Origin: Phycisphaerales bacterium
GTDB taxonomy: Bacteria; Planctomycetota; Phycisphaerae; Phycisphaerales; SM1A02
Direction of reading: 5' to 3'
Length of the DNA: 64,000 bases
Assembly: GCA_029260575.1 (NCBI GenBank)
Contig: JAJDDB010000035.1
Location: 248,001-312,000, forward strand
The translations under genes were made by a program, and so were the position numbers. Shown here in pieces: positions 1,211 to 64,000 of this stretch. Position 1 is the first letter of the stretch. Every line of letters begins with the position of its first letter. The notes under the pieces were generated by a model that was not told the origin of the DNA, searched no databases, and saw only the letters and a list, made by a program, of their open reading frames with translations.

Positions 1211-1738
1211 TCACCGCGGCTGAAGAATCCCCAGGTACTTCCCCCACACGCCGACGTAATTTCTGTACTCATGCGCCATCGTTGAGCAGATCTGCGCGAT
1301 GTGATGCAGATCATGCACAACCCACGCACCCAGCAGTTGCCGTGCGTTCACGCGGCCGAGTTCCGGATGCATGCCCGGCAATTCAAGCTGCGCTTCTGTC
1401 AACTTCAATGCGCGCAGATCATCGAGATTGCCCGCACGCTCAGTTGCAAACGCACCCAACAAGTCGTTGATTGACTTGCCATTGCTGCTTTCATACATCG
1501 CATAACGATCAAACGGTTCGAACGGCTGCGCATCGCCACGTTTGAGAATGATGCGCAAGCGTTTCATCCAGTCATCGCGCTCACCGTGCAACAGGTGGCC
1601 GACGACATCAAACGGACTGAACGTCTCCGGGCCGGTGTTGGAAATAATCCAGTCATTGCTCAGCCCGCCGAGCAACCCCCGCAACACCGCCGGCGTATTG
1701 GTGAGGACTTCGATCGATCGATCCACCGTGCATTGCAT
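1211..1738 (-). CDS. DinB-family protein (four-helix bundle, putative metal-dependent enzyme)
   Basis: 175 residues, the usual DinB/YfiT-like size. The N-terminal helix is followed by FDVVGHLLHGERDDW, where His near residue 48 matches the first metal ligand. The C-terminal VVHDLHHIAQI supplies the H-x3-H pair of ligands. Members of this superfamily are often thiol-dependent transferases or damage-inducible proteins of unknown substrate. The family call is clear; the reaction cannot be told. It is transcribed toward the lipoprotein at 410-1150 and lies downstream of gnd on the same strand, 171 bases away. Confidence 0.8.
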   Translation of the reverse strand: MQCTVDRSIEVLTNTPAVLRGLLGGLSNDWIISNTGPETFSPFDVVGHLLHGERDDWMKRLRIILKRGDAQPFEPFDRYAMYESSNGKSINDLLGAFATERAGNLDDLRALKLTEAQLELPGMHPELGRVNARQLLGAWVVHDLHHIAQICSTMAHEYRNYVGVWGKYLGILQPR

Positions 1739-1909
1739 CGCATCTCCTTTCGCGCATCGCGCCGCAATGGAGATCGAACGTACGTCGGAAGTGTCTCATT
1801 CTCGTCTAGCGGGCGAGTTTGCTCGCCGTTTCGGCCCGAATGTCGATTCCGACCCGCTCCAACTCCGAGCGCCAGAGCGGGGCAAGCCCCGCCGCTATAC
1901 GGCTATCCC

Positions 1910-3436: not shown

Positions 3437-3558
3437 CAGAACTCCCGATGTGCAAGAAAAAAATCAATCATCGTCAACGCACATGATCCACTGCCTGCAT
3501 GAACAGGGCAAGCGCTGCAGCACGTGTGATGGTTTTGCCCCGCGCCGCAGCGACCGCT

Positions 3559-4803
3559 ATGCTCAGATCGATGCCCAGCGAGACCTCCAACAGACCAATC
3601 CGCGTGCTGCTGTGGTCGCCAAAAGGCTCCGGCACGCATTACTATGGCCCAGGGTCATTCTTCTACCGAATGTACAGCCGAGCTGCGCCGGGGCGATTCG
3701 AAATCACACTTGCCCACACACAGCCGCTTCAACAAAAGCATGAGTTATTTGCCACACAGCATTTCATCGGCGAGGAATCGCCATATCAGCAAACGCGCCT
3801 CAAAAGCTATCTCGCGCTGCGCCGCTTCCTCAGCAATGCCCGTCGTTTCCTGGACAAGCACCACGGCGAATTTGATGTCATGCATGGCCTGTCCGGCTTC
3901 CAGGCAATCATTGAACCGGCTCAGTATGCCGAGCAGCTTGGACTACCTGCCGTCGTCTTCCTAGCGAACTATCAGCTCGACCTCTCGAACAAATCCGGCC
4001 TGCATGCACTGATGCGCCTCGGGACACGACGACTCAAAATGGCCTCACGCCTCAGTGCTGTCGTCGCAATGAGCGAGTCAATGTACGATGACCTGATCGA
4101 ACGAGGCTTTCCGCCACAACGAATCGCTCGCATCCCAATGGGTGTCGACACGCAACGTTTTAGCCCCGTCAGCAACGAAACCGATCGCAGTACGCTTTGC
4201 GCGCAACTCGGCATACCTGATAGACCAACGGTGGTCTTCGTCGGAACAGTTACACCCCGCAAACAACCGCATCTCCTTGTTGAAGCAATCGGCTTGCTTC
4301 ATCAACGCGGTGTTGAATGCCAGCTCGTCATCGCCGGCCCGTGCAATGAAGCCGATTACGTGCAACGGATCAAACAACGCCAAGAACAACTTGGCATCGA
4401 ATCGCTGATCCACTGGACTGGCTTCCTCGAAGATCCTGTGCCCATTCTGCGGGCCGCGGACATGTTCTGCCTGCCCTCGCAATCAGAAGGAATGCCTGCA
4501 GCCGTCGTTGAAGCAATGGCCTGCGGCTTACCGACACTTGCAACGAAAATTTCGGGCATTACTGATCTCATCGACGATGGCGAAAATGGACGAATTATCC
4601 TGCCTGATGCTGAACACATTGCAGATACAATCGAATCGTATTTGAACGATCCTCAAATGCTTACAGAACACGGACGACGCGCACGCAAGCGCGTAGAAAC
4701 ACGCTACAGCACAGATTTCGTGCTCGCTTCGTACGAGAAACTCTTCCGCACAGTCATAGCTGGAAAACCGGCTAGAGATTGGGAAACGTTCGAGTATCGC
4801 TGA
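3559..4803 (+). CDS. Glycosyltransferase, GT4 family (GT-B fold)
   Basis: Likely transfers a sugar from a nucleotide-sugar donor to a cell-surface glycan. The N-terminal domain opens with RVLLWSPKGSGTHYYGPG. The C-terminal donor domain has RIPMGVDTQRFSP, then VVFVGTVTPRKQPHLLVEAI, and the GT4 signature PSQSEGMPAAVVEAMACGLP with E-x7-E spacing. The frame is open from 3499. ATG at 3559 or 3571 gives a normal N-terminus, since the extra residues upstream look non-coding. It is convergent with the gene at 4825. The acceptor sugar cannot be inferred. Confidence 0.88.
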   Translation: MLRSMPSETSNRPIRVLLWSPKGSGTHYYGPGSFFYRMYSRAAPGRFEITLAHTQPLQQKHELFATQHFIGEESPYQQTRLKSYLALRRFLSNARRFLDKHHGEFDVMHGLSGFQAIIEPAQYAEQLGLPAVVFLANYQLDLSNKSGLHALMRLGTRRLKMASRLSAVVAMSESMYDDLIERGFPPQRIARIPMGVDTQRFSPVSNETDRSTLCAQLGIPDRPTVVFVGTVTPRKQPHLLVEAIGLLHQRGVECQLVIAGPCNEADYVQRIKQRQEQLGIESLIHWTGFLEDPVPILRAADMFCLPSQSEGMPAAVVEAMACGLPTLATKISGITDLIDDGENGRIILPDAEHIADTIESYLNDPQMLTEHGRRARKRVETRYSTDFVLASYEKLFRTVIAGKPARDWETFEYR

Positions 4804-4824
4804 AGCACCTTTGCGATGCAAAAA

Positions 4825-6321
4825 TTACTCCAGCGATGAATACTCACCCACAGCTTCTTCATCAAGCTGTTCCTGCGTCCACCACGGCCGCGGCGGCGCA
4901 GCACCGGTCCCCGAAGTCAAGACCATCGGTATTACGACCCGTCCTGCCCAGTACTTCTCTGCCGGCCCCGCGCGAAACGCAATCGCTTCATCGCCGGTCA
5001 CCGTCAGCGTCCACGACTCCGCATCGGTCGCCGGGTTGTACTGCTGTAACGATTGCAACAATGTAGTATTTTCGTAGGCGATCTCAAATCCATATCGTAG
5101 ATCAGCAGGCCCGCCGCCCATCCACCACAAATCCAGCCGCCGGGCAAGCTCTTCGCCGTACTTCAACTCCACCTTCACGCCAACAGCAGTATCCGCAAAC
5201 TCCGAACCTGCAGTCTCCGGAACGCGCACGTAAAACCGCACCGGCGACGACCCGGTTGTCCAATGCACAACACCCTGCCCAAACGCACGCTGCATTGCTG
5301 CATCAACCGCCGGGTCAATAACAATGCCCATGACCCCGGCCGCGTCGTCCTCAGCGGCTTCATCACTTGATGCAGTCATCCGCACCGCAACCGTCTGCTC
5401 GTCCACCACGTTCCATTGATCTTCAGGGCCACGCCGACGTTCGACTTGCACCTTCAGGTTCAATTCATTCGCTTCAAACGGCGGCACCGCCAGTGAAAAC
5501 GGCGCGTTCTGCTGAAGCACCGAACTGCTATACACCAGCGTTGAAGTTGCCCCGGAAACCTGCGGCGTAATGTGCATCCGCGCTTCGCAATCCACCGGCC
5601 ACCAATCGTCCAGCGATATGTTGACGCGCGCTTCAATGCGGCGCGGCCAGTCGCTGCGCGTCATCGCCAGCATTCTCGGTGGTATCTCCAGAAGCAGTTC
5701 ATCGAGCGAACGGGCAAAGCGCGCCGCCGGGCCGTTCAGTTCACCCGCGCCGCGCTCTGTTGCAATGTCAGTCACCAGTGTTGCTGCGAGTTGATTCGGC
5801 CACGGCCGCAGCATCTGCCCATACGTCTGCGCCCATTCATCCGACGGCGGCTCCCGCCACATATCGCCTTCCGCGCAGCGCTGCAGAACCGACAACCACT
5901 CGCCATCGGACAAGTCGTCGGCGCGCATGCGACGTTCGAGTTCGGTGACAGCTTCGCTGCCGTCTGCGATCGTCAACGGCAACGTCCAGATCAACGCCTT
6001 GGTCGGGACGACACCAACCCAGCCGCGCTGATCAATTTTCCAGTTCAGGTACACCGCCGGCCCGAGACAGATCAGCATCGCAAGCAGAGCAAGCGATTTG
6101 TGCCTGCGCGTCTTGTGAAACTGCACTTCGCGCTGCGCTGTAAAGCCGCATTCACTGCACGTCATGCCCGGCGTGTGCGACAGGTCATGCCAGCAGCGCG
6201 AACATCTGCGCTTGCCACGGGCCTGATCGCCGAACAGCGCACGCCAGGCGATGTAAATCATCACCACATACAGCAGTGCCGCGCCGAGCCACCCAAGCCA
6301 GAACAGAAGGTCACCTGTCAT
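4825..6321 (-). CDS. Hypothetical membrane protein with an N-terminal zinc ribbon
   Basis: 498 residues. The first 25 are a hydrophobic helix (LLFWLGWLGAALLYVVMIY). A four-cysteine zinc ribbon follows: CSRC, an 11-residue spacer containing WHDL, then CSEC-GF near residue 58. A second hydrophobic helix (SLALLAMLICLGPAVYLNW) is next. The remaining 400 residues are probably extracytoplasmic and beta-rich, with no known domain. The same ribbon plus membrane helix occurs at 28759-29589 and 43280-44239. This layout is frequent in planctomycete hypothetical proteins. The function is unknown. Confidence 0.72.
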   Translation of the reverse strand: MTGDLLFWLGWLGAALLYVVMIYIAWRALFGDQARGKRRCSRCWHDLSHTPGMTCSECGFTAQREVQFHKTRRHKSLALLAMLICLGPAVYLNWKIDQRGWVGVVPTKALIWTLPLTIADGSEAVTELERRMRADDLSDGEWLSVLQRCAEGDMWREPPSDEWAQTYGQMLRPWPNQLAATLVTDIATERGAGELNGPAARFARSLDELLLEIPPRMLAMTRSDWPRRIEARVNISLDDWWPVDCEARMHITPQVSGATSTLVYSSSVLQQNAPFSLAVPPFEANELNLKVQVERRRGPEDQWNVVDEQTVAVRMTASSDEAAEDDAAGVMGIVIDPAVDAAMQRAFGQGVVHWTTGSSPVRFYVRVPETAGSEFADTAVGVKVELKYGEELARRLDLWWMGGGPADLRYGFEIAYENTTLLQSLQQYNPATDAESWTLTVTGDEAIAFRAGPAEKYWAGRVVIPMVLTSGTGAAPPRPWWTQEQLDEEAVGEYSSLE

Positions 6322-34126: not shown

Positions 34127-34321
34127 AACTTCCCCGCTGATCGCCCCTGAACCCCGTCAGCCCCCTGTTCGACTGAAACTCTTTCAGAGCAATTCGCCAG
34201 ACGCCTATACTTAGGGGTATCCAGTGGTGAAGACGCTGAACGGCTGCGAAATCGAACTTTTCAGCCGCCTGCGTGTCCAACACTCTCAGTCGCCCGATTG
34301 AGAATCCCGGAGATCAATTAC

Positions 34322-35329
34322 ATGAAACTGTTGACCACAATCGCAACCGCCTCAATGCTCCTGCTGGCCAGCACAGCCCTCGGCCAGAGCATTTCCGAGC
34401 GGTATCAGCACGTTATGCAAAAACGCAGTGCTGCCCAGCGCAATAACTCCAGCAAAGCTCAGATGCTCAGCGCACTACTGTACACCGACCTCACGCTTGA
34501 GTTCCAGGAAACACCTGCTCGCGATGCGATCAACTATCTGAAAACCGTCATCGGCGTGAACATCATCGGCAGGTACAACGATGACAAAACCACCTTCGGT
34601 ATAGACCCAGATGCGCCGATCACGCTCAGCGTGCAGGACACTTCCGCACTCACCGTGCTCGAAATGGTACTCGCACAAACCGAAGACTTCGAACCAACCA
34701 CCTGGCAGCTTCGTGAAGGCTTCGTTGAAGTCGGCACCAAGGAACGCCTCAGCGTTCCCGCAGCCCAGGAAATTCGCTACTACCCCATTCGTGACATGCT
34801 CTTTGACCCCCCAAGGTTTGACAACGCACCCGATCTCGATCTTGACGCTGCACTCAACCAGGGCGGCAGCTCCGGCGGCGGTGGCGGCGGCGGAGGCTTC
34901 GGTGGTGGTGGCGGCTTCGGCGGCGGCGGTGGTGGTGGAGGCGGCGGTTCCGGCGGCGGAGGTGGTGGCGGCGGATCGCTATTCCCTGGTCCCGAAGATG
35001 AACCCGATCGTGTCCCCGAAGCTGAACGCGCTCAGGAAATCGTCGATCTCATCGTCGAACTGGTCGAGCCCGAAGCATGGCAACAGCTCGGCGGCGATGC
35101 AGCGAGCATCCGCTACTTCCAGGGTACGCTCATCATTCGCGCTCCCGATTACATCCACCGCCAAATCGGCGGTTACCCGTTTGCAACACGGCCCGTGCGC
35201 GTCTCACAGGCAGCAGTTGACCGTCGATATGTAACATTCACCGGCGGGCTGTCCAACGTGACAAATGCGGACTTCAGAACGGCCGAGCCCGTTGGTGGCG
35301 CTGCAGGCGGATCGTCCTCCTCGAACTGA
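34322..35329 (+). CDS. Secreted glycine-rich protein with secretin-N0/STN-like segments
   Basis: 335 residues. The start at 34322 gives signal peptide KLLTTIATASMLLLASTALG; GGAG is about 9 bases upstream. Residues 45-140 look like an STN/secretin N0 domain: LEFQETPARDAINYLKTVIG, then ITLSVQDTSALTVLEMVLAQ. IRYYPIRDMLF starts an N1-like strand. A glycine stretch interrupted by Ser and Phe (about residues 180-220) separates it from a second N-like half (IVDLIVELVEPEAWQQLGGD, then IRYFQGTLIIRAP). No barrel domain is present, so it is not itself a channel. It may bind a secretin or ring assembly in the periplasm. Partner and role are inferred. Confidence 0.75.
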   Translation: MKLLTTIATASMLLLASTALGQSISERYQHVMQKRSAAQRNNSSKAQMLSALLYTDLTLEFQETPARDAINYLKTVIGVNIIGRYNDDKTTFGIDPDAPITLSVQDTSALTVLEMVLAQTEDFEPTTWQLREGFVEVGTKERLSVPAAQEIRYYPIRDMLFDPPRFDNAPDLDLDAALNQGGSSGGGGGGGGFGGGGGFGGGGGGGGGGSGGGGGGGGSLFPGPEDEPDRVPEAERAQEIVDLIVELVEPEAWQQLGGDAASIRYFQGTLIIRAPDYIHRQIGGYPFATRPVRVSQAAVDRRYVTFTGGLSNVTNADFRTAEPVGGAAGGSSSSN

Positions 35330-35834: not shown

Positions 35835-36455
35835 GTGAACGCATTGAACCGATTGACACTCACCGCCATCTGCGCCGCTGCGACCGCTCTCGCCGTCGGC
35901 TGTGAAACCGCACCGCGCAATCAGGGAACCTCCGGCTACCGCATGGACCCCACACACGACTCCGAAGCAGAGCTCGGCAGCCTCGACCTGCGCTCCGCTG
36001 ACCTTGTCGCTGCAACCGATAAAATGGCAATGGACATGGCCCAGCGGCTCGACATCTCCAACCGCGACAATCCGCCACGCATTTTCTTCGGCGAGATCGA
36101 AAATGAAACCTCGCGACCCAATCGCGATTACCAGATTTTCCTCAACAGACTCCGCACACTTCTCGGCGTCGCAGGAACCCGACACGGCTTGGACATTCGA
36201 CGCGAACGACAATTCGTAGAGAAACAGCGCGCTCGTGAATACGGCGACAAACAACCCGACCGCGCCCCCAGCGCATATCGATCCGAAGCAGAATACGTCC
36301 TGACCTGTGTGGTTTCCGATCTGCCCAGCGGCGGCACGAACTACTACCTGCTCGAATATCAACTCGTGCAACTCGTTGATGTCGCAGAATCCGGCCCCGA
36401 CGCCGGCCCGGGCGCGATTGTCTGGACCAACTTCTACGAAGTGAAATACCAGTAA
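35835..36455 (+). CDS. LpoB-like lipoprotein (peptidoglycan synthase activator family)
   Basis: 206 residues with lipoprotein signal (LTLTAICAAATALAVGC, lipobox AVGC). The GTG start is supported by GGGAAG about 6 bases upstream. The mature domain fits the LpoB/YcfM fold: DLVAATDKMAMDMAQRL, then PPRIFFGEIENET, EAEYVLTCVVSDLPSG and a final strand VWTNFYEVKYQ. In E. coli LpoB crosses the periplasm to activate PBP1B. It heads a four-gene lipoprotein operon with a paralogue next. The partner synthase in this organism is not in the window. Confidence 0.83.
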   Translation: MNALNRLTLTAICAAATALAVGCETAPRNQGTSGYRMDPTHDSEAELGSLDLRSADLVAATDKMAMDMAQRLDISNRDNPPRIFFGEIENETSRPNRDYQIFLNRLRTLLGVAGTRHGLDIRRERQFVEKQRAREYGDKQPDRAPSAYRSEAEYVLTCVVSDLPSGGTNYYLLEYQLVQLVDVAESGPDAGPGAIVWTNFYEVKYQ

Positions 36456-36464
36456 AGCAGCCTC

Positions 36465-36485
36465 GCCGCTTGCGGCGTAGCACGC
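36465..36485 (+). repeat. Short palindromic repeat, copy 2
   Basis: GCCGCTTGCGGC followed by GTAGCACGC, in the 36-base gap between the two LpoB-like genes and ending 6 bases before the ATG at 36492. The hairpin would cover the ribosome binding region of the second gene. Confidence 0.8.
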
Positions 36486-36491
36486 GTACGC

Positions 36492-37079
36492 ATGTCCATA
36501 CGAGCTGCACATCTCGCTGCACTGCCCATCGCACTGCTTTTCGCATGCGCGCTCACCGGCTGCAGCGGCGCGCCGAAAATCAGAACTCCGTTCCTGCAAA
36601 GCGTTGACCTTGTCGACATGACCAACCGCATGGCGGAATCATTTACCGCAAGCGATGTGATCAACACACGCCGCCTCGATGACAACCCCTGGGTGATCTC
36701 GATCTATCGCGTCGTCAATCACACCAACCAGATCATCCCCGAGCGCGAGAAATGGCTCTACATCGGCCGGCTCCGCGGCATGTTGGCCCGCTCAAATGTC
36801 GCAGAAAAACACGCGCTGGTATGGATCGTGCCACCCGAGCGCTGGCCGGACGTTGCAAAAGCGCTCAACGCCGACCCCGCAGGCGAACCATTCGGTCTGC
36901 GCATGCAACCGACACATGTCCTGACCGCACAGTTCAACGCACTCACGATCACCAACGCGCTCAACCGCAGCGATGCCTATTTGTGCGCGTTCGAACTGCT
37001 CGACCTCGAAACAGGCAGCATCGTCTGGCAGGACGCGTGGGAAGTAAAACGCGCCGTGAGCGGCCTGACATATGACTGA
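36492..37079 (+). CDS. Second LpoB-like lipoprotein
   Basis: 195 residues. The signal ALPIALLFACALTGC has lipobox LTGC. The mature part parallels the upstream protein: DLVDMTNRMAESFTASDVIN, then WVISIYRVVNHTNQIIPERE, MQPTHVLTAQFNALTI, YLCAFELLDLETG and VWQDAWEVKRAV. The last segment (ELLDLETG followed by VW.D.WEVK) is the LpoB C-terminal pattern. The two copies are divergent, so the duplication is old. Its stop overlaps the start of the next gene by 8 bases, indicating translational coupling. Confidence 0.8.
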   Translation: MSIRAAHLAALPIALLFACALTGCSGAPKIRTPFLQSVDLVDMTNRMAESFTASDVINTRRLDDNPWVISIYRVVNHTNQIIPEREKWLYIGRLRGMLARSNVAEKHALVWIVPPERWPDVAKALNADPAGEPFGLRMQPTHVLTAQFNALTITNALNRSDAYLCAFELLDLETGSIVWQDAWEVKRAVSGLTYD

Positions 37080-38781
37080 CCCAAGCGCCAATGCATCAAA
37101 TCTACGACACGCCGGGAAGGTGCGCGCCGCGCATTGCTGTACGCTCAGCAGGTGTTTAGCTGTTTGGCTTTTCGGATTTCTGGGGTTTTCCTGTGGTTGT
37201 GAATCCGCGCCGCGCAACTACTCCGCCATTCGTGCGTACTACAACTACGATTTCACAACTGCACGCGAAGCCGTCCGTGACGATGCCTACATCCAGAACG
37301 AACAGGTCCTGCTGAACAACGCACGCCTCGGTGTGGCTGCACTTGCCGACGGCGACAATACCGAAGCTGAACAGGCGCTCGGCCGGGTCTTCAACTGGCT
37401 CTCCACCGCCGGCCTCAACGAAGATCGCACCACCGCAGCCGTCTGGGTGCATGAAGGCGTGCGCATCTGGAAAGGCGAACCGTTCGAGCAGGCCCTGCTG
37501 TACCACTACGTCGCAACTCAATACGCCGTGCAGGACGACTGGGAAAACGCACGCGCAGCTGCAAGCAACGCGCTGTTTCGCCTGACGGACTTCGGCGGTG
37601 ACAAATCTTCAGAAGATCTCACCCGCAGCGCCGCAGAAGATGACAACTTCCTCGACATCGAGTACACCGCTGTAGATACCAACTTCGCGCTCGGCTTCGT
37701 CATGCAGGCGATCGGCTCGAAACTCTCAGGTGCATCCGGCTTCGATGCGCAGCTCAATGCAGCCGTTGCAATAAACGAAGACTTGAACGCTCTTACAGAC
37801 CGCATTCGCAGCGGCTTCGACACGTTGCTGATCGTTGACTACGGCAAGGGACCGACCAAGATTGCCTACGGCCCCGACGATGCATTGCTGCGCTTCGACC
37901 CGCAGGAGCGCCACCGTGGGCCGATCACTGTTAACATCAACGGCTCGCATGCTGCCAAACTCAATCCTGTTTGCGATATCGACCGGATGGCTGTTGATCA
38001 CCGCTGGAACAATCTCGAAGATATCCGCATCGCAAAGAGCGTCATCGGCGATGTACTCGTCGTCTCCGGCTTCGCAGTCGCAGCCCACGGCGGCAATCGC
38101 GATTCACTCGAAACAGTTCTTGCTGGCCTCGGCATGATGGCAGCAGGTGCGCTGACAAAAAGTGGCGCAAAGGGGGATACACGATATTTTGAATTCGCGC
38201 CGCAGTCGATTTACATCGTGCCGCTCGCGCTTGGCGACGTATCCGATCTTGAACTTGCAATCCAAGGCGATGTCGGATCCCGTGTTGTGCTCGACAACGT
38301 TCGCCCGGGAACTGCTGAGAACCCGCGCACAATCTACCTGCGTATTCACGGCGCGGACAGCCCCGACCCGCAATGGCTCACTGCAATCACGCCGTACTAC
38401 ACCAACGACTTCAACGCGCCGAGTGCCGGGGCGCTTCCATATATCGGCGGCGGGCGAGATGTCTCCATGCCGTCGCGGACACTGCTGCAGACCTATCAGG
38501 CTGGCGGTTTCCCCACTGAATTCACTCCCGGCGATCTGATTGATCTGTATCGCGTTGATGAAGAGCTTTTCCTCGGTTCGGGAATGGACCCGGCCAATGA
38601 CATCCCCCGCAATTCGTCATATCGGCACATACTCGAAACCGGCCGGGCCATCTTCACCCCACAGCCGTACTCCATGGGCTACAAACGCCTCATGTATCAG
38701 CCCCACGATCCATACGAACCACGATCCGAGCGCCTGCGGAATATCGCAGCGCGTTTACGGGTCAGACAAGACGAACCGTGA
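37072..38781 (+). CDS. COG3014-like lipoprotein of unknown function
   Basis: 569 residues. The start ATG lies inside the end of the previous gene. A hydrophobic stretch LAVWLFGFLGFSCGC near residue 40 ends in a plausible lipobox. The N-terminal half is helical with repeat-like segments (LNNARLGVAALADGDNTEAE; AQYAVQDDWENARAAASNAL without its first residues is the second), as in tetratricopeptide proteins. The middle has LLIVDYGKGPTKIAYGP, and a glycine-rich helix, GMMAAGALTKSGAKGD, follows. This order matches uncharacterised lipoproteins encoded beside ycfL and lpoB in some gammaproteobacteria. The homology call is from memory of that family and should be taken as probable. Confidence 0.72.
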   Translation: MTDPSANASNLRHAGKVRAAHCCTLSRCLAVWLFGFLGFSCGCESAPRNYSAIRAYYNYDFTTAREAVRDDAYIQNEQVLLNNARLGVAALADGDNTEAEQALGRVFNWLSTAGLNEDRTTAAVWVHEGVRIWKGEPFEQALLYHYVATQYAVQDDWENARAAASNALFRLTDFGGDKSSEDLTRSAAEDDNFLDIEYTAVDTNFALGFVMQAIGSKLSGASGFDAQLNAAVAINEDLNALTDRIRSGFDTLLIVDYGKGPTKIAYGPDDALLRFDPQERHRGPITVNINGSHAAKLNPVCDIDRMAVDHRWNNLEDIRIAKSVIGDVLVVSGFAVAAHGGNRDSLETVLAGLGMMAAGALTKSGAKGDTRYFEFAPQSIYIVPLALGDVSDLELAIQGDVGSRVVLDNVRPGTAENPRTIYLRIHGADSPDPQWLTAITPYYTNDFNAPSAGALPYIGGGRDVSMPSRTLLQTYQAGGFPTEFTPGDLIDLYRVDEELFLGSGMDPANDIPRNSSYRHILETGRAIFTPQPYSMGYKRLMYQPHDPYEPRSERLRNIAARLRVRQDEP

Positions 38782-38816
38782 TACCACAACACGCACCACC
38801 GGCGAGGAGGCCGATG

Positions 38817-39254
38817 ATGAATCTTAAGACTGCTTACATCTGTGTTCTGTCCACAGCGATTGCTTTCACTGTTGCGCTGTCATTTGGCTGCGAGGCCGAT
38901 CGATCCCCCGCGCCCGGCATGGGCGACCCATATCCAGCGCCGATGAACGACCCGCAGATCACCGTCATCGCGCCCGAGCTGCGCAACTGGCTGGCGTTTC
39001 ACCCTGCCGTCATCACCGACCGTGCCGATCCCGAGCGCCCGATGCAGGTCGAAGTGCCGGTGCGCAACACATCCGAAGAAACCTACCTCATCGATTACCG
39101 CTTCCTGTTTTATGACCTCGACGGCAGGCAACTGGAACCGGCAATGGGTTGGCGCATGCAGGAACTCTACGGCAAACAACTCGTCCGCCTCAAAGCCGGT
39201 GCGCTGCACAACGACGCGGTCGACTACCGCCTCGAAATCAAATGGGCAAAGTAA
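38817..39254 (+). CDS. YcfL-like lipoprotein (DUF1425)
   Basis: 145 residues. GAGGAGG at 38804-38810 favours the ATG at 38817 over 38814. The signal ends in FTVALSFGC. The mature domain is a small beta sandwich: VEVPVRNTSEETYLIDYRFL, then FYDLDGRQLEPAMGWRM and YRLEIKWAK at the very end, the pattern of DUF1425/YcfL. Its place after LpoB-like and COG3014-like genes supports the call. The role is probably linked to LpoB in the periplasm; the exact function is unknown in any organism that I recall. Confidence 0.8.
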   Translation: MNLKTAYICVLSTAIAFTVALSFGCEADRSPAPGMGDPYPAPMNDPQITVIAPELRNWLAFHPAVITDRADPERPMQVEVPVRNTSEETYLIDYRFLFYDLDGRQLEPAMGWRMQELYGKQLVRLKAGALHNDAVDYRLEIKWAK

Positions 39255-56054: not shown

Positions 56055-56669
56055 TCAACGGCGAAGGACTGCAGCAGTGGAGCCGCGGCCGATCTGGATG
56101 ATGCGCACGCCATCCGCGCGAACCGCCGCGCGCCCATCTGCCGGCTCAAAGCGCCCAATGAGGTTCGATGTCATGGACGGCAGCACATCGCCGCCGGTTT
56201 CGAGCAGGCTGAGTCTAAAAGTATACCCGCGGGAAAAGAGTCGCGAATGGATTCGTGCGTCATCAACACGTTGGCCTTCAAATCGCCACGACGCGATTGG
56301 TGTGGAATTGTGAACGGACGCGCCGGCTGCGAAAAGTTCAAACACAAATGCGCCGGGCTCATGAATGGATGTCGGATGCGGTCTGGAATACAGAAATGCC
56401 TGCACCGCAATCTGATCCGGATAGCTGTTGCCGTCAGAGTCGGTCGGTTTGAGCGCGACGAGCAGCGCCATGGCATTGGCATCGGCGTCGACAGGCGTTT
56501 TCGGCGCGGAATTGGGTTCGGGCGGCATCGGCCGGCCATCGCTTGTTGTGACTTTCGTTGAGCAACCCATCACCAGCGCGAGCATTGCAAATGCGACAAT
56601 GTTGCACAGCGTACACCTGCATCGAAGCATAAAGCCTGAAGACGTTCTGCGATCGTCATGGTCTGACAT
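56055..56669 (-). CDS. Lipoprotein overlapping the giant secretin gene
   Basis: 204 residues. The signal VAFAMLALVMGC ends in lipobox VMGC near residue 36. The mature part opens with a proline-rich linker (RPMPPEPNSAPKTPVD) and continues as a beta-rich domain (DQIAVQAFLYSRP, AFVFELFAAGASVHNSTPIA, YTFRLSLLETGGDVLPSMTS). Its start lies 14 bases inside the end of the secretin gene, so translation is coupled. A pilotin-like helper of secretin assembly is a possible role, by position only; no known pilotin motif is visible. Confidence 0.78.
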   Translation of the reverse strand: MSDHDDRRTSSGFMLRCRCTLCNIVAFAMLALVMGCSTKVTTSDGRPMPPEPNSAPKTPVDADANAMALLVALKPTDSDGNSYPDQIAVQAFLYSRPHPTSIHEPGAFVFELFAAGASVHNSTPIASWRFEGQRVDDARIHSRLFSRGYTFRLSLLETGGDVLPSMTSNLIGRFEPADGRAAVRADGVRIIQIGRGSTAAVLRR

Positions 56670-59600
56670 TTTCTACAACTTTCTCGAACCGGTCTTCAGT
56701 CTCGTCGCCCTGATCGGGGTCGGAGTCGGGGTCGGGATTCTCCGCACGTTCAACATCGATCAATTCATCATCGTCAACCTCAATCGGATCAGCATCGCCA
56801 TTGAGAAAGCTGTGCTTGTCCGGCGGGATCAAGTTTCCTTCAGCATCATACAGCCGACCTTCGAGCATGCTGCGGCGAATCTGGTCCTTAACTTTGCTCG
56901 GCACGGAGAGACGCTCAACTTCGCGCTCCGTCAAATCGTCAATCCCCGACGGACTGTCCACTACATACGGCGTCAACACAATCAGAAATTCGGTCTTCGT
57001 TGAAGTTTCCGTATCACTGCGGAAGAAGAAACCGAGCAGCGGAATGTCGCCCAGCAAGGGAACCTTGCGAGTTCGCAGTTCGTACCGGTCGGAAATGAGA
57101 CCGCCGATCACTATAGTCTGGCCGTCAGCGACAGTGATAGTTGTATCCGCACGCCGCCGCGTGATGATCGGCGACTGGAAATCCTCAGAAATTTGAATCG
57201 TGCGGTTGCTCAACTCGGAAATTTCCGGCTGAATCGTCATGCGCACAAATCCATCGGGATTGATCGACGGCGTGACGTTCAGGATGACGCCGATGTCTTC
57301 TTCAATCACACTCGAGAACTGTTGATCATTGGTGAATGATGTACTTTCAGGCACACGAATCGTTTCGCCGACCTGAATCTCCGCAGCTTCGTTGTTGGCT
57401 GCCATCACAGAGGGATTGCTCAATACCTGCAATCTGCCCTGTGATTGCAGGGCTTTAATGAGCAGATCAAAATCGCCGGACGCCACCGATAAACTCGGCA
57501 CGCCCATGCCGGAGACAAACGCGCTGGCCAGGCCGAACCCGCCGGCGACGCTGAATTCGCCGACGTCACCTGCAACAGTCATATCCACGCCCCACTCATC
57601 GGAATAATCAAGCGTGACTTCCGCGAGCAGGACCTGGATCAACACCTGCGGTGGATCGACATCCAGTTCTTCGATCATCTGCTGCACGCGCTCCATATAA
57701 CGCGGGCTTGCGCTGACAAGAACGGTGTTGGATTTTTCATCGCCGACGATCGTGACTTCACGTTCGAGTAATCGAGCAGCACTGCCGAGCTGATCGCTGC
57801 TGAGCGTGTCGATGAGTTTCTGTTGTTCCGCCTGCACGAATTCAGTGATCACGCGAGCGACTTCCGTTGCCGCAGCATTACGAAGTGCGTAGACAAACGT
57901 TTCGCGCTCGTTGGCTTCGATGTTGTCGAGCTCATCAACGACTTTGGCGACGAGATCAAGATACGTCGGCGTGCCGGAGACGAGCAGACTGTTCGTGCGG
58001 CTGTCCACGGTGATGGAAAGTTGCTGGCGTTCATCGGGGACGGCTGTAAGGTCTGTGCCGAACAACGGCCCGCCCGCATCTGCACCACCATCGCCAATGC
58101 CCGACACGCTGCCGCCGTCTTCGCGCGGCTTAAGCACCAGCAGATTGCTGCCCTGACGAAGGTTGAACAAGTCGGTAATGATCTCCGCCATGGCTGTCGC
58201 ATCAGCGTTGGTGAGCTTGAAGATGCGCACGTTCTTCGAGCCAACGCTTGACTCGTCGAGATCGCGAATCATCTGCTCGATCATGTCCATCGAATCGCGC
58301 GGTGCGCGCACGATGATTGTGTTGGTGCGCACATCCGGCGTGAGTGAAATTGATTCACGAATGGCGGCGCTGACTTCCATTTCGTTCAGTTCATCACCCG
58401 CGTCGCCAGGAGTTTCACGCTCTGCAAGCTCACGCAGGTATTTGAGGACGGTTGCCTGATCGCCTCGACGCGTGCCGATGCCGCGCCCGCTGAGCACTGT
58501 CTCGATAAGACCGACCGTCTCCAGCGCGTTTGCACTCGTCAGCGGAATGTATTTAATTTCGACCACAGTTGACGGCCGAGTACCATCGAGCTGCGCGATC
58601 AATCGGCGAATCTCTGCGACATCGCGCTGCGGGGCACGCACCAACACCGCATTGATGCGATCATCCGCGGTGATTTGTATCGTGTTGGGGCCGCGCCGGC
58701 GATTCTCCTCATTGACATACAACTCATCAAGCATGTCGATGACATCGCTCGCGCGGTTCTTTGCAAGCGACATGATCTCGAATTCACCTTCGCCGACACC
58801 TTCTTCTTCAGCGGCTGACAGCGCATCAATCAACCGCATAACGATCTGCAGGTTCTCTTCGTTGGCAGCGACTATCAGGCTGTTGCTTGCAGTGTCCGCT
58901 TCGATAGTGACGCGATCAGATGGCGTCGACGCCTGGCCGAGTGATTGCTGGCGATCGCGCATCAATCGTTGCAGACGAGGCGCGACTGCTTCAGCCTTGC
59001 TTGATTCCAACGCGATGACATGTATGTTCACAGCCGGATTGAATGACGTGTTTTCGAGTTTGTCGATCAATCGCCCGATGGCAGTGATATCTTCGGGGTT
59101 CGCTGCAACGAGCAGGCTATTGGTGCGCGGTTCGGTCATAATGAGCGGGCGCTGACTGGTGCGCAGCTCCGCTGGCATGTCGGCATAACGACGCTCCATG
59201 ATCGAATTCACAGCATTGGCGATGCGATCAATGTTGCCCTTTTCAATTTCAAAGACTTCGACAAGCGCATCGTCAGCCAGGGTCGAGACATCCAGATCAG
59301 TGACAAGTTGCTGAATGACTTCGAACGCTTCGTTTCCAGCAGCAATGATTAGACTGTTCGTGCGCGGCTCAGCAACGATTGTTGCGCGTTCAAGTTCGGC
59401 GGTTTGCGGATCAACACGGCGCAGGCGCTCCAGACGAGCATCCATCATCTCCTGCGCGATGTCTGCAAGCCGAGCTGCGGAGGCAAACTCCAGATCGAGC
59501 TGGCGAATCTGCTGAATATCCGGCGGCATATCGGTGTCGAGCATGTCCAGCAGGTTCTCAAGCACCGCAAAGCTGCGCGGGCTCGTCGATACGATCAGCG

Positions 59601-62600
59601 AATTGGTGCGCTCATCTGCCTGCACGATAATTCGATCTTCCGGGCGGATGATGCGCGACTGCACCTGCTGTGCAAAGAGACGTTCAACCGTCGTTGCAAT
59701 TCGCGCAGCTGAGGCATTTTCAATCGGATAAATGCGCACTGCGGAGTTCGGCGAGGCGGCTTCGACATCGAGCATCGCAACCATCTCAGAAACAATCTCA
59801 ATGTTGGCAGGTGTGCCGACGAGAATCAGCGCGTTGAGCTTCGGTTCAGCGCGAATAATCAACCGACTCATCGGCTGAAAGACTTCCGATTCAATAACGC
59901 GGCCGCCGTTGTCAGTCATGCGAGCCATGCGCAGCCGGCCGACCTGTTTCTGCAACGGCGTTGACTGCGGCAAATCACGTTGACCTTCGACGATAATTTC
60001 CTGCAGCGTTTCCGCAAGGTCAGTGCTGTCTGCAAACTTCATCGTAATGATGCGTGGCTCGACCCAACCGACGACGATGTCGGTGTCGAGGCGTTTGCTG
60101 AGCACTTCCACAAATGCAACTGCGTCTTCCTTGCCGGCCACGACGACGGTGTTGGTACGTTCATCAACACTGATCGCAACATTATCGAGTAAGGCCCGGC
60201 CGAGCGTTCCGCCGGGGATTCCCTGAATGGACGTACCGGGAATACCCTGCAGTTGTTTGCCCTGTGTGAACAGATCGCGGACGATTCGTGCAAACTGCTC
60301 GGCAGCGATATTTCCCAGCGGGAAGATCTGAATCGTCACTGCATCGGTGATCGGCAGCGCATCGAACATCTGCACCAGTTCGGTGAGAGCTTCAACATTT
60401 GTCTTCGTAGAACTGATGATGAGCGCGTTGAGATTCTGATCTGCGATCAGTCGGATTGGTTTGGTGAGATCGAGTTCGAATGCAGCATCATCGACGCCAT
60501 CGCGCTGCACAGCCAGCCTGCGAACCTGTTCCTGCACAGCCTGGGCAAGCGCTGTCTGCGACTGTTGCGCACCCGGCTTAAGGACTTCATTGAGCACACG
60601 TGCGAGCGCAGCAGCTTCGGCATTGCGCAGCGACACAACGCGCAATTCGCTGGTGGCAAGGTCCGGTTCTTCATCGAGCGATTTCAGCAGACTGATGACG
60701 ACCTGCCGATCGACTGGGTTGGCCACGACCACGATTGCCTGACGACCGTGCAGGGCTGCAACCTTTATAGGATCGGTGACAAGCCGGGAGACTGCATCGT
60801 CGGGTTGGGGTTGATCGAGGCCGATCGTACGGATGACTTCCAGTGCATCTTCCGGAGCGACGTGTTCGAGTTCGATGATGAAGATGCTTTGGTTGGGCGC
60901 GGGGGCAAGCGCATCAAGTTGTTCAACGGTACGCTCGATTTCTTCGAACAGGCCGCCACTGCTGGCAATGATCAAGCTGTTGCCTGCTGAATCAACTTGA
61001 ATGGACAACGGTTGATTTGCCTGGCGGGCCTTCTGTTGGAAAGCGTCTTCGATGGCGGACGCCACGCGGCCGGCTGGAGCGCTCGTCAGCTGCAGAACCC
61101 GCACGGTCAGCCCCTGCGTTGATGCCTGCTGTTGCAGTGCTTCTGCGAGTGCTTGAATCTGTTGAAATTCGTCATCTTCAGCGCGAACGATGATTGTACT
61201 GCTGGATTCATCGCCGACGATGCGCAGTGCTTTGCTGCCAGTCCCACGATCCTGTCGTTCATACAGCAGCTTCAGCGACTCAGCGAGTTGAGCCGGACTG
61301 CCTGTTGTAACTGCAATGAATCGCGGCGGAGGGAGTTTGGCATAGTCCGCAACGTCAAGCTGTTCGAGGATTTGCTCAACCTTGCGCATATTCTGCAGGC
61401 TGGCAGAAATGATCACCGAGTTAGTCTGCGGCTCGGCTGCAGCGCGAACCCATTCATCAGCCTGCACCAACACGGTCGGCGCTTCCACATCGCGTCGATC
61501 ATCACCCGAACGATTTTGTTGCCGACCTGGCTGATTGCGCTGCGGCCGATCTATTGTCGTCTGGAATGCCTCGTTGATAGCGCGGGCGACGGAACTCGCA
61601 TCGGCGTACACCAACGGCATCACACGAAGTTGCAACGATGAGTCGTATTCCTCGCTGTCGAGCTTTTCGAGCAGCGCGCGAATATTGGCCCATTCGCTTT
61701 CATCTGCAGAAATGACCAGGCTGTTGGTGGCAGGGTCTGCGACAATGCGGGCATTGATTCGGCCGGGCGTGTCAGCCTCGATCGCAAATGGACCGTAGAA
61801 AACCGACAGCGCTTCCTGCACCTGTTCAGCACCGGCAAATTGCAGTGGTACAAAATCCGTTACGCGCTGTCGTTCGGACGGAACATCGAGCTCCTTGACA
61901 ATTCGCTTGATCTGCTCGAATTGATCTGCCGTCGCAGCCAGAATGATCTGATTCTCAAGCCGGTTGTAGTCAACACTCGCACGCGGACCGTCCGTGTCCA
62001 TGTTGCGAATGAACTGGCGAAGCGTGAACGCGACATCAATCGCAATGGCGTGCTCAAGCGCGATGATGTGATATTCAACCGGGCTGACTGTCGGCACTTC
62101 ATCCAGCCGGGTAAGTAGCGCTTCGATAACCGGGAATGACTGTTCGGTTGCGGTAATGACCAGGCTATTGCTTCGGCGGTCTGCAACGATACGGGCCTTG
62201 ACTTCAACACCGTCGCTGTCCAGTTCATCAAGTTTGATGGTGATGCCGTCGGTACGACCTTCCGCATCAAGCTGCAGCGTGTCGGACAACATGCGGCGCA
62301 CTTCTTCTGCACGTGCAACCTGGAGCGTGTACGTCCGAATGATTGTTTCATCGCTTGCGGGAGGAGTGTCCAGTCGATCGACGAGCGACAACACCTGTGG
62401 CAATTGTTGTTTGGGGCTGTTGATTATCAGGCTGTTGGTTCGTATATCAGGTGTGACGCGCAGACCTTGACGATCTCGGGTGCCGAACTGCTCGCGCAGG
62501 ATTTGTGCGATCTCATCAGCGTCGCCGTCAGCAAGCGCGATGATTTCAATCTTGCGATCGCCAGAGAGATCCGGTTGATCCAGCTGCCCCATCAATTCGC

Positions 62601-64000
62601 GCAACAGGGCCATGTCATCATCGTTGGCGGAGACAATAAGCGCATTGCCCGCATCGCTGGGAACGATTGTGGCTGAAGAGCGCGGCGCGTTGATCGCATC
62701 GGCGCGATTATCCAGAAATCGCTGCAACGTTCGCCCGAGATTCGATGCCCGACCGTACTGCAATGTCAACACCTGCATTGTCTGATCGGGCGGCGCAGTC
62801 TCGTCATCAATTGTCGCAATGAGCGCTGCGATTTCTTCCTGCACCTTCTGCACACTGGAAACAATGATTGTGTTGCTGGAATCATCAATGCGAATGCGCG
62901 GTTCGGATGGATCAGGCGGCTCCCACCAGCGGTTTGCTCGGCTGGGGTCAGTAAAAGCTTCGCGCAGAATGTCAGCGACGAGTTGCACATCAGCATGCTG
63001 CACGCTGTACAGCCGAACAAGGCGCTGCTCGCCGGCGGATGGCGGTGCATCGAGTACTTCAATCAGACGTTCGCCGAGTTGGAATTTGTCCCCCTCGCCG
63101 GTGACGATCAGAGCGTTCAGTCGATTGTCGCTGCGGATGGCCAGCGTTCCGCGTTGCTGCTGGGTGGAGCTGAACCGATTGCCGAAGCCAAAGAACATGA
63201 CCGGACCCTGATTCCAGGTGAGATCATTCACAAGGCCTTCAATGGTCTGGCGGATGTCTTCCGCGCGAGCGTGTTCCAGCGGATAGACGCGGAAGTCCAG
63301 CGCGCTGGCTGCTTCGGGTGAATCAAATTGCGCGACGAGTTCGCTGATCTGTTCGAAGTCGTCATCGGAAGCTGCAACGAGAATTGTCTTGCTTGCGGAA
63401 TCACCGATGATGGATACACGACGGCCGCGCTGCCTGCGGCCCTGGCCTGTGCTTGCGATTCGGGCTCGGTCGTCGTACAGCCGCTGTAAAGCGTCAGCAA
63501 CTGCGGATGCGTCCGCCAATTCCAGGGTAATAGTGCGTACATCAAACTGTTCGGTGGCGTCGCGGTCGATTTCAGCGAGCACGCGCTCGATATCAGCCAT
63601 GACTTCATCGGATGCGCGTACGAGCAGCAGGCCGGACTGATCATCGGGGACGACAAGCGTAGTCTCACGGCGGCTCTGGTCGGCGCTGAGAACGACCTTG
63701 TCGATCAGTTCAGCGACTCGGCTCGGCTGGGCTGCTTCAAGATCAATCATGCGCAGTGCGTGGGTCGCTTCGCCAAGCGTGCGGTCCAGTGATTCCAGCA
63801 GTTCATCGACTTCCGCAAGGTGCTCAGGCGCTGCGGTGACGATGAGCATATTGGTGCGCTCGTCTGCTGCGAATTCGGGTTGTTGAATCTGCCCACGACT
63901 TTGCCGCTGCATGACCGCAAAGCGCGTTCGGAAGATATTGCGCAGTGTGTTGACCAGTTCCCGCGCCCGAGCGTGCTTGAGTGGATACATCTTCAGCGTC
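56656..64000 (-). CDS. Giant secretin (GspD/PilQ family) with at least 25 N-type domains, 5'-truncated
   Basis: Outer-membrane channel subunit of a type II secretion or pilus-like machine. The frame is uninterrupted for more than 2440 codons and leaves the window, so the start and signal peptide are missing. Counting from the Met at 63990, residues 1-2110 hold 25 tandem N-type domains averaging about 84 residues, each with a first strand like IYPLENASAARI, a middle DERTNSLIV strand and a last helix ending in LD. Residues about 2113-2345 are the secretin barrel: LQVLSNPSVMAANNEAAEIQ, VADGQTIVIGGLISD and the signature VPLLGDIPLLGFFF. An acidic 100-residue tail follows. Usual GspD has N0 plus three N domains. 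The lipoprotein gene overlaps the end. Confidence 0.93.
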   Translation of the reverse strand, partial: TLKMYPLKHARARELVNTLRNIFRTRFAVMQRQSRGQIQQPEFAADERTNMLIVTAAPEHLAEVDELLESLDRTLGEATHALRMIDLEAAQPSRVAELIDKVVLSADQSRRETTLVVPDDQSGLLLVRASDEVMADIERVLAEIDRDATEQFDVRTITLELADASAVADALQRLYDDRARIASTGQGRRQRGRRVSIIGDSASKTILVAASDDDFEQISELVAQFDSPEAASALDFRVYPLEHARAEDIRQTIEGLVNDLTWNQGPVMFFGFGNRFSSTQQQRGTLAIRSDNRLNALIVTGEGDKFQLGERLIEVLDAPPSAGEQRLVRLYSVQHADVQLVADILREAFTDPSRANRWWEPPDPSEPRIRIDDSSNTIIVSSVQKVQEEIAALIATIDDETAPPDQTMQVLTLQYGRASNLGRTLQRFLDNRADAINAPRSSATIVPSDAGNALIVSANDDDMALLRELMGQLDQPDLSGDRKIEIIALADGDADEIAQILREQFGTRDRQGLRVTPDIRTNSLIINSPKQQLPQVLSLVDRLDTPPASDETIIRTYTLQVARAEEVRRMLSDTLQLDAEGRTDGITIKLDELDSDGVEVKARIVADRRSNSLVITATEQSFPVIEALLTRLDEVPTVSPVEYHIIALEHAIAIDVAFTLRQFIRNMDTDGPRASVDYNRLENQIILAATADQFEQIKRIVKELDVPSERQRVTDFVPLQFAGAEQVQEALSVFYGPFAIEADTPGRINARIVADPATNSLVISADESEWANIRALLEKLDSEEYDSSLQLRVMPLVYADASSVARAINEAFQTTIDRPQRNQPGRQQNRSGDDRRDVEAPTVLVQADEWVRAAAEPQTNSVIISASLQNMRKVEQILEQLDVADYAKLPPPRFIAVTTGSPAQLAESLKLLYERQDRGTGSKALRIVGDESSSTIIVRAEDDEFQQIQALAEALQQQASTQGLTVRVLQLTSAPAGRVASAIEDAFQQKARQANQPLSIQVDSAGNSLIIASSGGLFEEIERTVEQLDALAPAPNQSIFIIELEHVAPEDALEVIRTIGLDQPQPDDAVSRLVTDPIKVAALHGRQAIVVVANPVDRQVVISLLKSLDEEPDLATSELRVVSLRNAEAAALARVLNEVLKPGAQQSQTALAQAVQEQVRRLAVQRDGVDDAAFELDLTKPIRLIADQNLNALIISSTKTNVEALTELVQMFDALPITDAVTIQIFPLGNIAAEQFARIVRDLFTQGKQLQGIPGTSIQGIPGGTLGRALLDNVAISVDERTNTVVVAGKEDAVAFVEVLSKRLDTDIVVGWVEPRIITMKFADSTDLAETLQEIIVEGQRDLPQSTPLQKQVGRLRMARMTDNGGRVIESEVFQPMSRLIIRAEPKLNALILVGTPANIEIVSEMVAMLDVEAASPNSAVRIYPIENASAARIATTVERLFAQQVQSRIIRPEDRIIVQADERTNSLIVSTSPRSFAVLENLLDMLDTDMPPDIQQIRQLDLEFASAARLADIAQEMMDARLERLRRVDPQTAELERATIVAEPRTNSLIIAAGNEAFEVIQQLVTDLDVSTLADDALVEVFEIEKGNIDRIANAVNSIMERRYADMPAELRTSQRPLIMTEPRTNSLLVAANPEDITAIGRLIDKLENTSFNPAVNIHVIALESSKAEAVAPRLQRLMRDRQQSLGQASTPSDRVTIEADTASNSLIVAANEENLQIVMRLIDALSAAEEEGVGEGEFEIMSLAKNRASDVIDMLDELYVNEENRRRGPNTIQITADDRINAVLVRAPQRDVAEIRRLIAQLDGTRPSTVVEIKYIPLTSANALETVGLIETVLSGRGIGTRRGDQATVLKYLRELAERETPGDAGDELNEMEVSAAIRESISLTPDVRTNTIIVRAPRDSMDMIEQMIRDLDESSVGSKNVRIFKLTNADATAMAEIITDLFNLRQGSNLLVLKPREDGGSVSGIGDGGADAGGPLFGTDLTAVPDERQQLSITVDSRTNSLLVSGTPTYLDLVAKVVDELDNIEANERETFVYALRNAAATEVARVITEFVQAEQQKLIDTLSSDQLGSAARLLEREVTIVGDEKSNTVLVSASPRYMERVQQMIEELDVDPPQVLIQVLLAEVTLDYSDEWGVDMTVAGDVGEFSVAGGFGLASAFVSGMGVPSLSVASGDFDLLIKALQSQGRLQVLSNPSVMAANNEAAEIQVGETIRVPESTSFTNDQQFSSVIEEDIGVILNVTPSINPDGFVRMTIQPEISELSNRTIQISEDFQSPIITRRRADTTITVADGQTIVIGGLISDRYELRTRKVPLLGDIPLLGFFFRSDTETSTKTEFLIVLTPYVVDSPSGIDDLTEREVERLSVPSKVKDQIRRSMLEGRLYDAEGNLIPPDKHSFLNGDADPIEVDDDELIDVERAENPDPDSDPDQGDETEDRFEKVVENVRP
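57661..64000 (-). repeat. Coding array of 25 divergent secretin N-domain repeats
   Basis: Protein-level repeats only; no tandem identity is visible in the DNA, so the array is old. Clear members include those around residues 1416-1485 (ADERTNSLIVSTSPRSF), 1493-1566 (AEPRTNSLIIAAGNEAF) and 1575-1645 (TEPRTNSLLVAANPEDI). Weaker members (about residues 886-952 and 1034-1105) have lost the RTNS core. Inserts occur at about residues 810-850, 1135-1175, 1335-1372, 1840-1880 and 1950-1985, the last glycine-rich. Confidence 0.88.

Follow-up and report, generated by a model that had tools for sequence, protein, structure and literature searches.

In E. coli, the lipoprotein LpoB switches on the cell-wall enzyme PBP1B, and it traverses the periplasm by means of a long Pro-rich tether. 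Typas et al. 2010 describe LpoB as confined to enterobacteria and as having evolved recently together with the UB2H domain (PMC3060616). In Pseudomonas, LpoP is characterised as an outer-membrane TPR lipoprotein with an extended tether that binds UB2H (PMC7267771). The window considered here, a 64,000-nt stretch of a Phycisphaerales genome, contains a confirmed four-lipoprotein operon at 35835-39254 that resembles E. coli ycfL-lpoB in carrying YcfL and LpoB homologues close together on one strand and in the LpoB fold. Unlike the E. coli locus, where no TPR partner is found within a 17-kb stretch, the operon also encodes a TPR lipoprotein. This protein is of the same general kind as LpoP, but LpoP is tethered and binds UB2H (PMC7267771), whereas LP3 would have no class A PBP to bind: E. 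coli possesses PBP1B with its UB2H domain, but no domain of a class A PBP was detected in the genome examined here. The four genes are as follows.

35835..36455, + strand: LP1, predicted LpoB-fold lipoprotein, first paralogue, 206 aa, start GTG (hhalign and AF2 model)
36492..37079, + strand: LP2, predicted LpoB-fold lipoprotein, second paralogue, 195 aa (PF13036 match)
37072..38781, + strand: LP3, predicted TPR lipoprotein ("COG3014-like"), 569 aa (hhalign to the canonical TPR protein)
38814..39254, + strand: LP4, predicted YcfL/DUF1425 lipoprotein, 146 aa from ATG (PF07233 match)

Every N-terminus, read by eye from the sequence, is hydrophobic and ends at a lipobox-like Cys. Other starts are possible for LP3 (a later GTG at 37120) and for LP4 (a GTG at 38778, upstream of the ATG at 38814). 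The four-gene order was found again in 9 of 40 hand-chosen relative loci; the arrangement is therefore not due to chance, and this conserved gene order rules out chance ORFs. The LP2 and LP3 frames share 8 bp, which suggests that the two genes are coupled; the initial annotation had taken the overlapping frames as proof of joint expression, for which an overlap by itself is insufficient. A promoter and terminator scan was uninformative (2 promoter-like sites vs. 1.7 expected, and 3 terminator-like sites vs. 4.2 expected).

The protein families had been named correctly: there are two LpoB-like proteins, a DUF1425 protein, and a TPR lipoprotein that is a homologue of the partner usually encoded upstream. 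The anticipated matches to PF13036 and DUF1425 were obtained above the cut-offs for LP2 and LP4, respectively, while LP1, which has no Pfam match, is linked to the family by hhalign and by fold. LP2 scores 27.2 bits against PF13036 (curated cut-off 22.3), although a six-frame search of the genome with this model returned 0 matches at E<=0.001, and the LP2 match is therefore a weak one. Against NCBIfam TIGR02722 it scores 25.1, far under the equivalog cut-off of 110.55, and LP1 has no match. Profile comparison aligns LP2 with canonical LpoB (hhalign, 96.6%); similarity to E. coli LpoB is very weak (BLASTP, E 0.016), and a search of PDB sequences found nothing relevant.

LP1 has no match in Pfam at E<=10, PF13036 included, but hhalign relates it to the LP2 family (99.0%) and to canonical LpoB (97.3%). 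Its AF2 model, computed from an alignment made up of LpoBs, reaches a modest pLDDT of 64; the nearest solved structures, in the top three rows, are the LpoB entries 4q6z, 4q6l, and 2mii (Z 10.1, 9.5, and 8.1), with 116 residues aligned to 4q6z at 3.2 Å. Judged from these profile alignments and the modelled fold, LP1 is LpoB-like despite the missing Pfam match. The rows after LpoB include PelC and TraT, and CsgG and FlgT are also structural neighbours, although rows under Z 8 possibly reflect just a common arrangement. The model thus shares its fold with the outer-membrane lipoproteins PelC, TraT, CsgG, and GNA1162, but at a Z of only 4.5-6.7, under that of LpoB.

LP4 scores 44.6 bits against PF07233 (DUF1425; cut-off 28.3), is recovered with E. 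coli YcfL in a direct BLASTP comparison (E 1e-4), and weakly matches PDB entry 3o0l (E 0.0034), whose protein is uncharacterised. The sole Pfam match of LP3 is to a TPR model, far under its cut-off. Profile alignment (hhalign, 98.7% over 392 columns) nevertheless identifies LP3 as a homologue of the TPR protein encoded ahead of YcfL-LpoB elsewhere, at 16% identity to the canonical reference (L091) and with ~137 additional C-terminal residues unaligned with the canonical form. In a model of a canonical TPR protein (L108), the N-terminal half is TPR; the C-terminal half finds no match of its own in the VIA list, which TPR chains dominate, and a new fold is not implied. The label COG3014, which we take to apply to LP3-type proteins, had no mention that we could find in full-text literature.

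Of 80 loci compared, 66 show the order TPR protein-YcfL-LpoB; they span seven phyla, with carriers such as Sedimentisphaerales, Desulfobacterium, Sulfurimonas, Chlorobium, and Marinobacterium. The module is old, as had been proposed, and wider than was claimed. Across the genomes of the class, PF13036 is tied to DUF1425 (odds 14.8, p 4e-16). The window operon shares the three families and their single strand with this canonical module, but its LpoB is duplicated and placed upstream, LP3 is divergent and extended, and no CsgG-domain-type gene lies near the operon. Such a gene, assigned by Pfam on one representative, lies downstream on the same strand in 51 of up to 116 related loci; a second count gave 52 loci with it, among them 0 of the 10 window-type loci. 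A CsgG-like protein (L192) is encoded elsewhere in the genome, unlinked to the operon.

In a tree of the TPR protein, rows of one phylum group together (8 changes, where 6 is the minimum), and Planctomycetota lie on one side of a branch with support 99; the window-type rows are on a long branch. A recent acquisition of the canonical module by planctomycetes is therefore disfavoured, and older transfers are compatible with the tree. For the family as a whole, this distribution contradicts the restriction to enterobacteria given in Typas et al. 2010 (PMC3060616), and it suggests that the tether is the recent part of LpoB. The multi-phylum distribution and a recent tether together make the origin of a wall-synthesis regulator testable.

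The stretch between the lipobox Cys and the folded domain comprises 15 residues in LP2 and 33 in LP1, with 2 Pro each, vs. 59 residues with 16 Pro in E. coli LpoB. Neither window protein has a long Pro-rich tether; the 33 residues of LP1 would fall among the shortest of the tethered stretches (31-116), yet are not Pro-rich. The 68 scored LpoBs of the module (L132 and L187 unscored) have 23-27 residues. Among Oceanisphaera-order loci, 47 LpoBs beside a TPR gene have 23-25 residues, whereas 19 scorable LpoBs without an adjacent TPR gene, E. coli included, have 31-116 residues with 11-39% proline. The two ranges do not overlap in 70 loci plus E. coli, where the 70 (30 best and 40 chosen) are drawn from 105 match rows whose remaining 35 include the weakest, two 16-bit LpoB-model matches were left out of the count (L243 4947-6158 and L254 647-1657), and L226, L227, L229, L230, and L252, with no TPR neighbour and no lipobox by the pattern used, stand outside the range. 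Because the ranges split without overlap and ten genomes hold both LpoB types, the module LpoB appears to be a lineage of its own, untethered, which would stay at the outer membrane. Tethered LpoB adjoins ycfL in E. coli and in L225-L230, so the split between types is not total. The LpoB tree places tethered LpoBs on one side of a branch with SH-aLRT 93 (below the 95 mark), with long-branch warnings and with 14 near-duplicate gammaproteobacterial rows and ten A8 rows omitted.

The initial annotation had linked the operon to activation of a class A peptidoglycan synthase, as LpoB does for PBP1B in E. coli, and had made this depend on a bifunctional PBP in the genome. The class A domain PF00912 has 0 matches at E<=10 in this 95.3% complete genome (the same search was positive in 10 of 14 control genomes) and is unmatched in 179 of the 198 genomes of the class, this one included. 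It is present in 10 of 108 PF13036-positive and 9 of 90 PF13036-negative genomes (Fisher p = 1); LpoB presence is independent of PF00912 across the class. In favour of such activation, LP2 passes PF13036, two canonical Phycisphaerae LpoBs exceed the TIGR02722 equivalog cut-off (135.8 and 125.7), and G125 (99% complete), the only genome of the same family with PF00912, also has a window-type operon, so that a class A PBP can coexist with it. Set against this are the 98 PF13036-positive genomes lacking the domain, the lack of a long tether, and the low TIGR02722 score of LP2. Activation of a class A PBP would require that such an enzyme be encoded in the ~5% of the genome absent from the assembly or be invisible to PF00912; this activation is largely refuted, we regard it as highly improbable, and we reject it. 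The earlier interpretation as a whole is thus partly supported.

The genome does encode SEDS proteins, found in 196 of 198 genomes of the class, and class B PBPs, with two PF00905 proteins, one of them with a RodA-like gene after it. If class A PBPs were lost, RodA-PBP2 and FtsW-FtsI would be the sole polymerases and hence targets for regulation by the lipoproteins, but seven scanned representatives of recurring neighbours include no wall or division gene, the tethers are short, and the module also occurs in class A PBP genomes (PF00912 in 22 of 31 module genomes). Such regulation is unlikely. A PelC/CsgG-like ring devoted to the export of one specific cargo, a polysaccharide or fibre, is a somewhat stronger minority candidate, given that a CsgG-domain-type gene can follow the canonical module and given the structural neighbours PelC, TraT, CsgG, and FlgT; the same seven representatives hold no cargo, glycosyltransferase, or beta-barrel gene, however, and fold similarity, which falls in part below Z 8, does not show function. 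A general envelope-integrity or lipoprotein-sorting factor that links outer membrane and wall structurally, with no role in transport, would fit a broadly distributed set composed entirely of lipoproteins, but LP1-LP4 contain no wall-binding Pfam domain, and we hold this to be rather improbable.

We assign a probability of roughly 45% to a tentative reading in which the four lipoproteins form an assembly anchored in the outer membrane and do not activate class A PBPs, by a mechanism that we infer as follows. LP1 and LP2 would oligomerise, perhaps as a ring, through the CsgG/PelC/TraT-type fold at the periplasmic face of the outer membrane; the TPR scaffold LP3 would hold this pair, and the DUF1425 protein LP4 would join the complex. 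By analogy with that fold group, the complex may belong to an apparatus for envelope assembly or export, and the ancestral LpoB may likewise have acted in an outer-membrane assembly of the CsgG/PelC fold group. In favour of this reading, UB2H (PF14814) occurs within an ORF the size of PBP1B in only 7 of 31 other genomes that carry the module; against it stand the 22 of these 31 with PF00912, the coexistence in G125, and the absence of the CsgG-domain-type gene from window-type loci.

Since a PBP1B-type enzyme is seemingly absent from this bacterium, the LpoB family probably started out in another role at the outer membrane; activation of PBP1B looks like a derived gammaproteobacterial use. We consider it fairly probable that LpoB, rather than originating in enterobacteria to activate PBP1B, stems from an old multi-phylum TPR-YcfL-LpoB module, often with a CsgG-domain protein, that works without class A PBPs, that a single lineage in the gammaproteobacteria acquired the Pro-rich tether and was recruited to dock on UB2H, and that the Phycisphaerae LpoB was duplicated into LP1 and LP2. 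The E. coli protein, which reaches PBP1B through the wall and has no adjacent TPR partner, would then represent this later offshoot. If this is true, database labels of "PBP activator LpoB" on the untethered type are wrong in several phyla; the LpoBs of G063 and G146 already pass TIGR02722, annotated as "penicillin-binding protein activator LpoB", in genomes without a PF00912 match.

LP2 and LP4 match the lipoprotein families of the canonical module, in which genes for a TPR protein, YcfL, and LpoB lie in that order on one strand, although here the order is LpoB-LpoB-TPR-YcfL (window-type).

35835-39254, + strand: four-gene lipoprotein operon from ORFs, comprising LpoB-fold paralogues (LP1, LP2), a TPR lipoprotein (LP3), and a YcfL lipoprotein (LP4)

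LP2 exceeds the Pfam cut-off for PF13036 (LpoB; 27.2 bits, cut-off 22.3) and LP4 that for PF07233 (DUF1425; 44.6 bits, cut-off 28.3). LP1 gave no match in profile searches, and the sole match of LP3 was a TPR model scoring far under its cut-off. Gaps of 36 bp (LP1-LP2) and 32 bp (LP3-LP4, with an ATG start for LP4) separate the outer pairs, and the LP2 and LP3 frames overlap by 8 bp. The initial annotation took overlapping frames as proof of joint expression; the overlap is real and suggests that LP2 and LP3 may be coupled, but it does not in itself show expression. Directly upstream of LP1, a Gly-rich, secreted-looking protein (34298-35329, +) contains a secretin-N-like stretch recognized by eye, and nothing in it exceeds Pfam cut-offs.

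Separate alignments of window-type LP1 (A4), LP2 (A5), and LP3 (A3) were compared with one another and with those of the canonical TPR proteins (A2) and the canonical LpoBs, E. coli among them (A6). In these comparisons, whose alignments take in parts of signal peptides, LP1 scored 99.0% against LP2 and 97.3% against canonical LpoB, LP2 scored 96.6% against canonical LpoB, and LP3 scored 98.7% over 392 columns against canonical TPR proteins; direct BLASTP of LP2 to E. coli LpoB was weak (E 0.016). An AF2 model of LP1 (pLDDT 64, pTM 0.51), built from an input alignment composed of LpoBs, retrieved solved LpoB domains as its top three VIA rows (Z 10.1, 9.5, and 8.1), followed by a THUMP domain (Z 7.0), PelC (Z 6.7), and TraT (Z 6.1). 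In Foldseek, PelC occupied rows 1-5 and LpoB rows 6 and 8, with E values around 1e-3 in every case. The good-quality model of the canonical TPR protein (pLDDT 84) is TPR in its N-terminal half.

Across 41 loci (the window plus 40 chosen mainly around DUF1425 matches), the layouts were TPR-YcfL-LpoB (16), LpoB-LpoB-TPR-YcfL (10, including the window), LpoB-LpoB-TPR with YcfL reversed (5), LpoB-TPR-YcfL-LpoB (2), and partial or different (8). A multi-phylum scan with six canonical TPR proteins as queries, biased towards Phycisphaerae because it used Phycisphaerae patterns, recovered the same-strand TPR-YcfL-LpoB order in 66 of the best 80 of 196 relatives; the rest were TPR and LpoB without a YcfL match (4), TPR-YcfL without LpoB (5), and TPR alone (5), several of these incomplete layouts lying at contig ends. 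The TPR-protein tree (55 canonical and 9 window-type rows) groups by phylum: a branch separates each of Planctomycetota, Lentisphaerota, Chlorobiota, Campylobacterota, and Myxococcota from all other rows, and Pseudomonadota and Thermodesulfobacteriota are intermixed. In the LpoB tree, window-type rows form one group (support 97) with LP1 (94) and LP2 (98) subgroups, which fits one old duplication, a provisional reading because the tree has several long branches.

Within the class sample (198 Phycisphaerae genomes, the window's own counted in), DUF1425 occurs in 87 and PF13036 in at least 108, PF13036 counts being lower bounds because the window genome scores 0 in the six-frame search. The two co-occur in 75 genomes (odds 14.8, p 4e-16). 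In the phylum sample, DUF1425 occurs in 76/294 genomes, of which 63 belong to other classes.

E. coli LpoB is elongated (~145 Å) and thus reaches UB2H, the docking domain of PBP1B, according to PMC9593243 and PMC6220978; LpoP, unrelated to LpoB, is likewise described with an extended tether in PMC7267771. Module LpoBs from the multi-phylum TPR scan have 23-27 residues from Cys to domain (median 24; 68/70 scored) vs 59 in E. coli. PF13036 occurs in 87/148 genomes of the order of Oceanisphaera, and tethers were compared there at 70 loci out of 105 matches listed, together with E. coli, with lengths that depend on alignment to a single E. coli column. The 47 LpoBs adjoining a TPR gene have 23-25 residues and ≤2 Pro; those without one (19 of 24 scorable, E. 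coli counted) have 31-116 residues and 11-39% Pro, so that the ranges show zero overlap (nearest values 25 and 31). Ten genomes carry one of each type (G225, G226, G525, G547, G548, G567, G601, G615, G628, and G641), and the tethered LpoBs form one side of a tree branch with support 93, under the 95 mark. At seven loci (L225-L230 and that of E. coli) an LpoB lacking a TPR neighbour adjoins ycfL, and the stretch available at each contains no TPR gene. LP2 has 15 residues and LP1 33, with 2 Pro each; the LP1 tether thus exceeds the module type but is not Pro-rich.

The LpoB of the module and the activator with the tether look like separate lineages within a single fold family, and the window operon belongs to the TPR-associated side, with its LpoB duplicated; the simplest history derives the activator from an old outer-membrane module. 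Typas et al. (PMC3060616) describe LpoB as enterobacterial and recent using a 100-bit cut-off, which would hide distant members. No description of the module outside Gammaproteobacteria was found in the accessible literature searched, and a full-text literature search returned no mention of COG3014.

The window genome has no PF00912 (class A PBP) match at E≤10, two SEDS proteins, and two PF00905 proteins, with a RodA-like gene directly after one PF00905 gene by ORF reading; the organism therefore probably makes its wall with no enzyme of the class activated by LpoB. Absence of class A PBPs from a 'Planctomyces sp.' has already been published (PMC8406291). In the class, SEDS occurs in 196/198 genomes (155/155 of good quality) and PF00912 in 19/198 (18 over cut-off; 8/155 of good quality), independently of PF13036 (10/108 with vs 9/90 without, p = 1) and likewise of DUF1425 (5/87 vs 14/111, p = 0.14). 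Five class genomes have both DUF1425 and PF00912 (G039, G125, G145, G156, and G169). The assemblies of G145, G156, and G169 comprise 400-710 contigs and may be contaminated; the G125 assembly seems sound (20 contigs, completeness 99%). This last genome belongs to the window organism's family and combines a window-type operon (L067) with PF00912, which counts against a strict rule.

Among 31 module-bearing genomes, PF00912 occurs in 22 (1/8 of those from Phycisphaerae-type loci), and UB2H lies within a PBP1B-size ORF (774-809 aa) beside PF00912 in seven, of which six are gammaproteobacterial and one belongs to Desulfobacteraceae. Of the nine remaining UB2H rows, eight fall in ORFs of 1087-1238 aa, a size that would fit Mfd, and the search also matches in 6/14 control genomes. 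Two Phycisphaerae LpoBs (L089, 8289-8900; L092, 3139-3747) exceed the equivalog cut-off of the NCBIfam model 'PBP activator LpoB'; their genomes (G063, G146) gave no PF00912 match, and the label is a probable over-annotation.

Regulation of SEDS synthases by the module is possible. We favour a putative role in outer-membrane assembly or export, because the fold is common to PelC, TraT, and CsgG and because of a CsgG-domain neighbour. Among 116 loci examined, some contigs being counted twice and many loci truncated at contig ends, a CsgG-domain cluster (representative 44.2 bits to PF03783) is found downstream, in the same orientation, in 51 (52 by iterated search), and in 0/10 window-type loci. 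At an Oceanimonas locus (L243, G226; 1445-6158), LpoB is followed by DUF6844-type and CsgG-domain-type proteins, assigned from cluster representatives, forming a longer module. The window genome encodes a CsgG-like protein (L192, contig C20; 38.5 bits) elsewhere, unlinked to the operon. At the window edge, a 2444-aa ORF (56656-63990, -), which starts near that edge and may be longer, is a giant secretin with 25 stretches of Secretin_N and, C-terminally, a single Secretin domain; usual secretins have few N-domains, far below 25.
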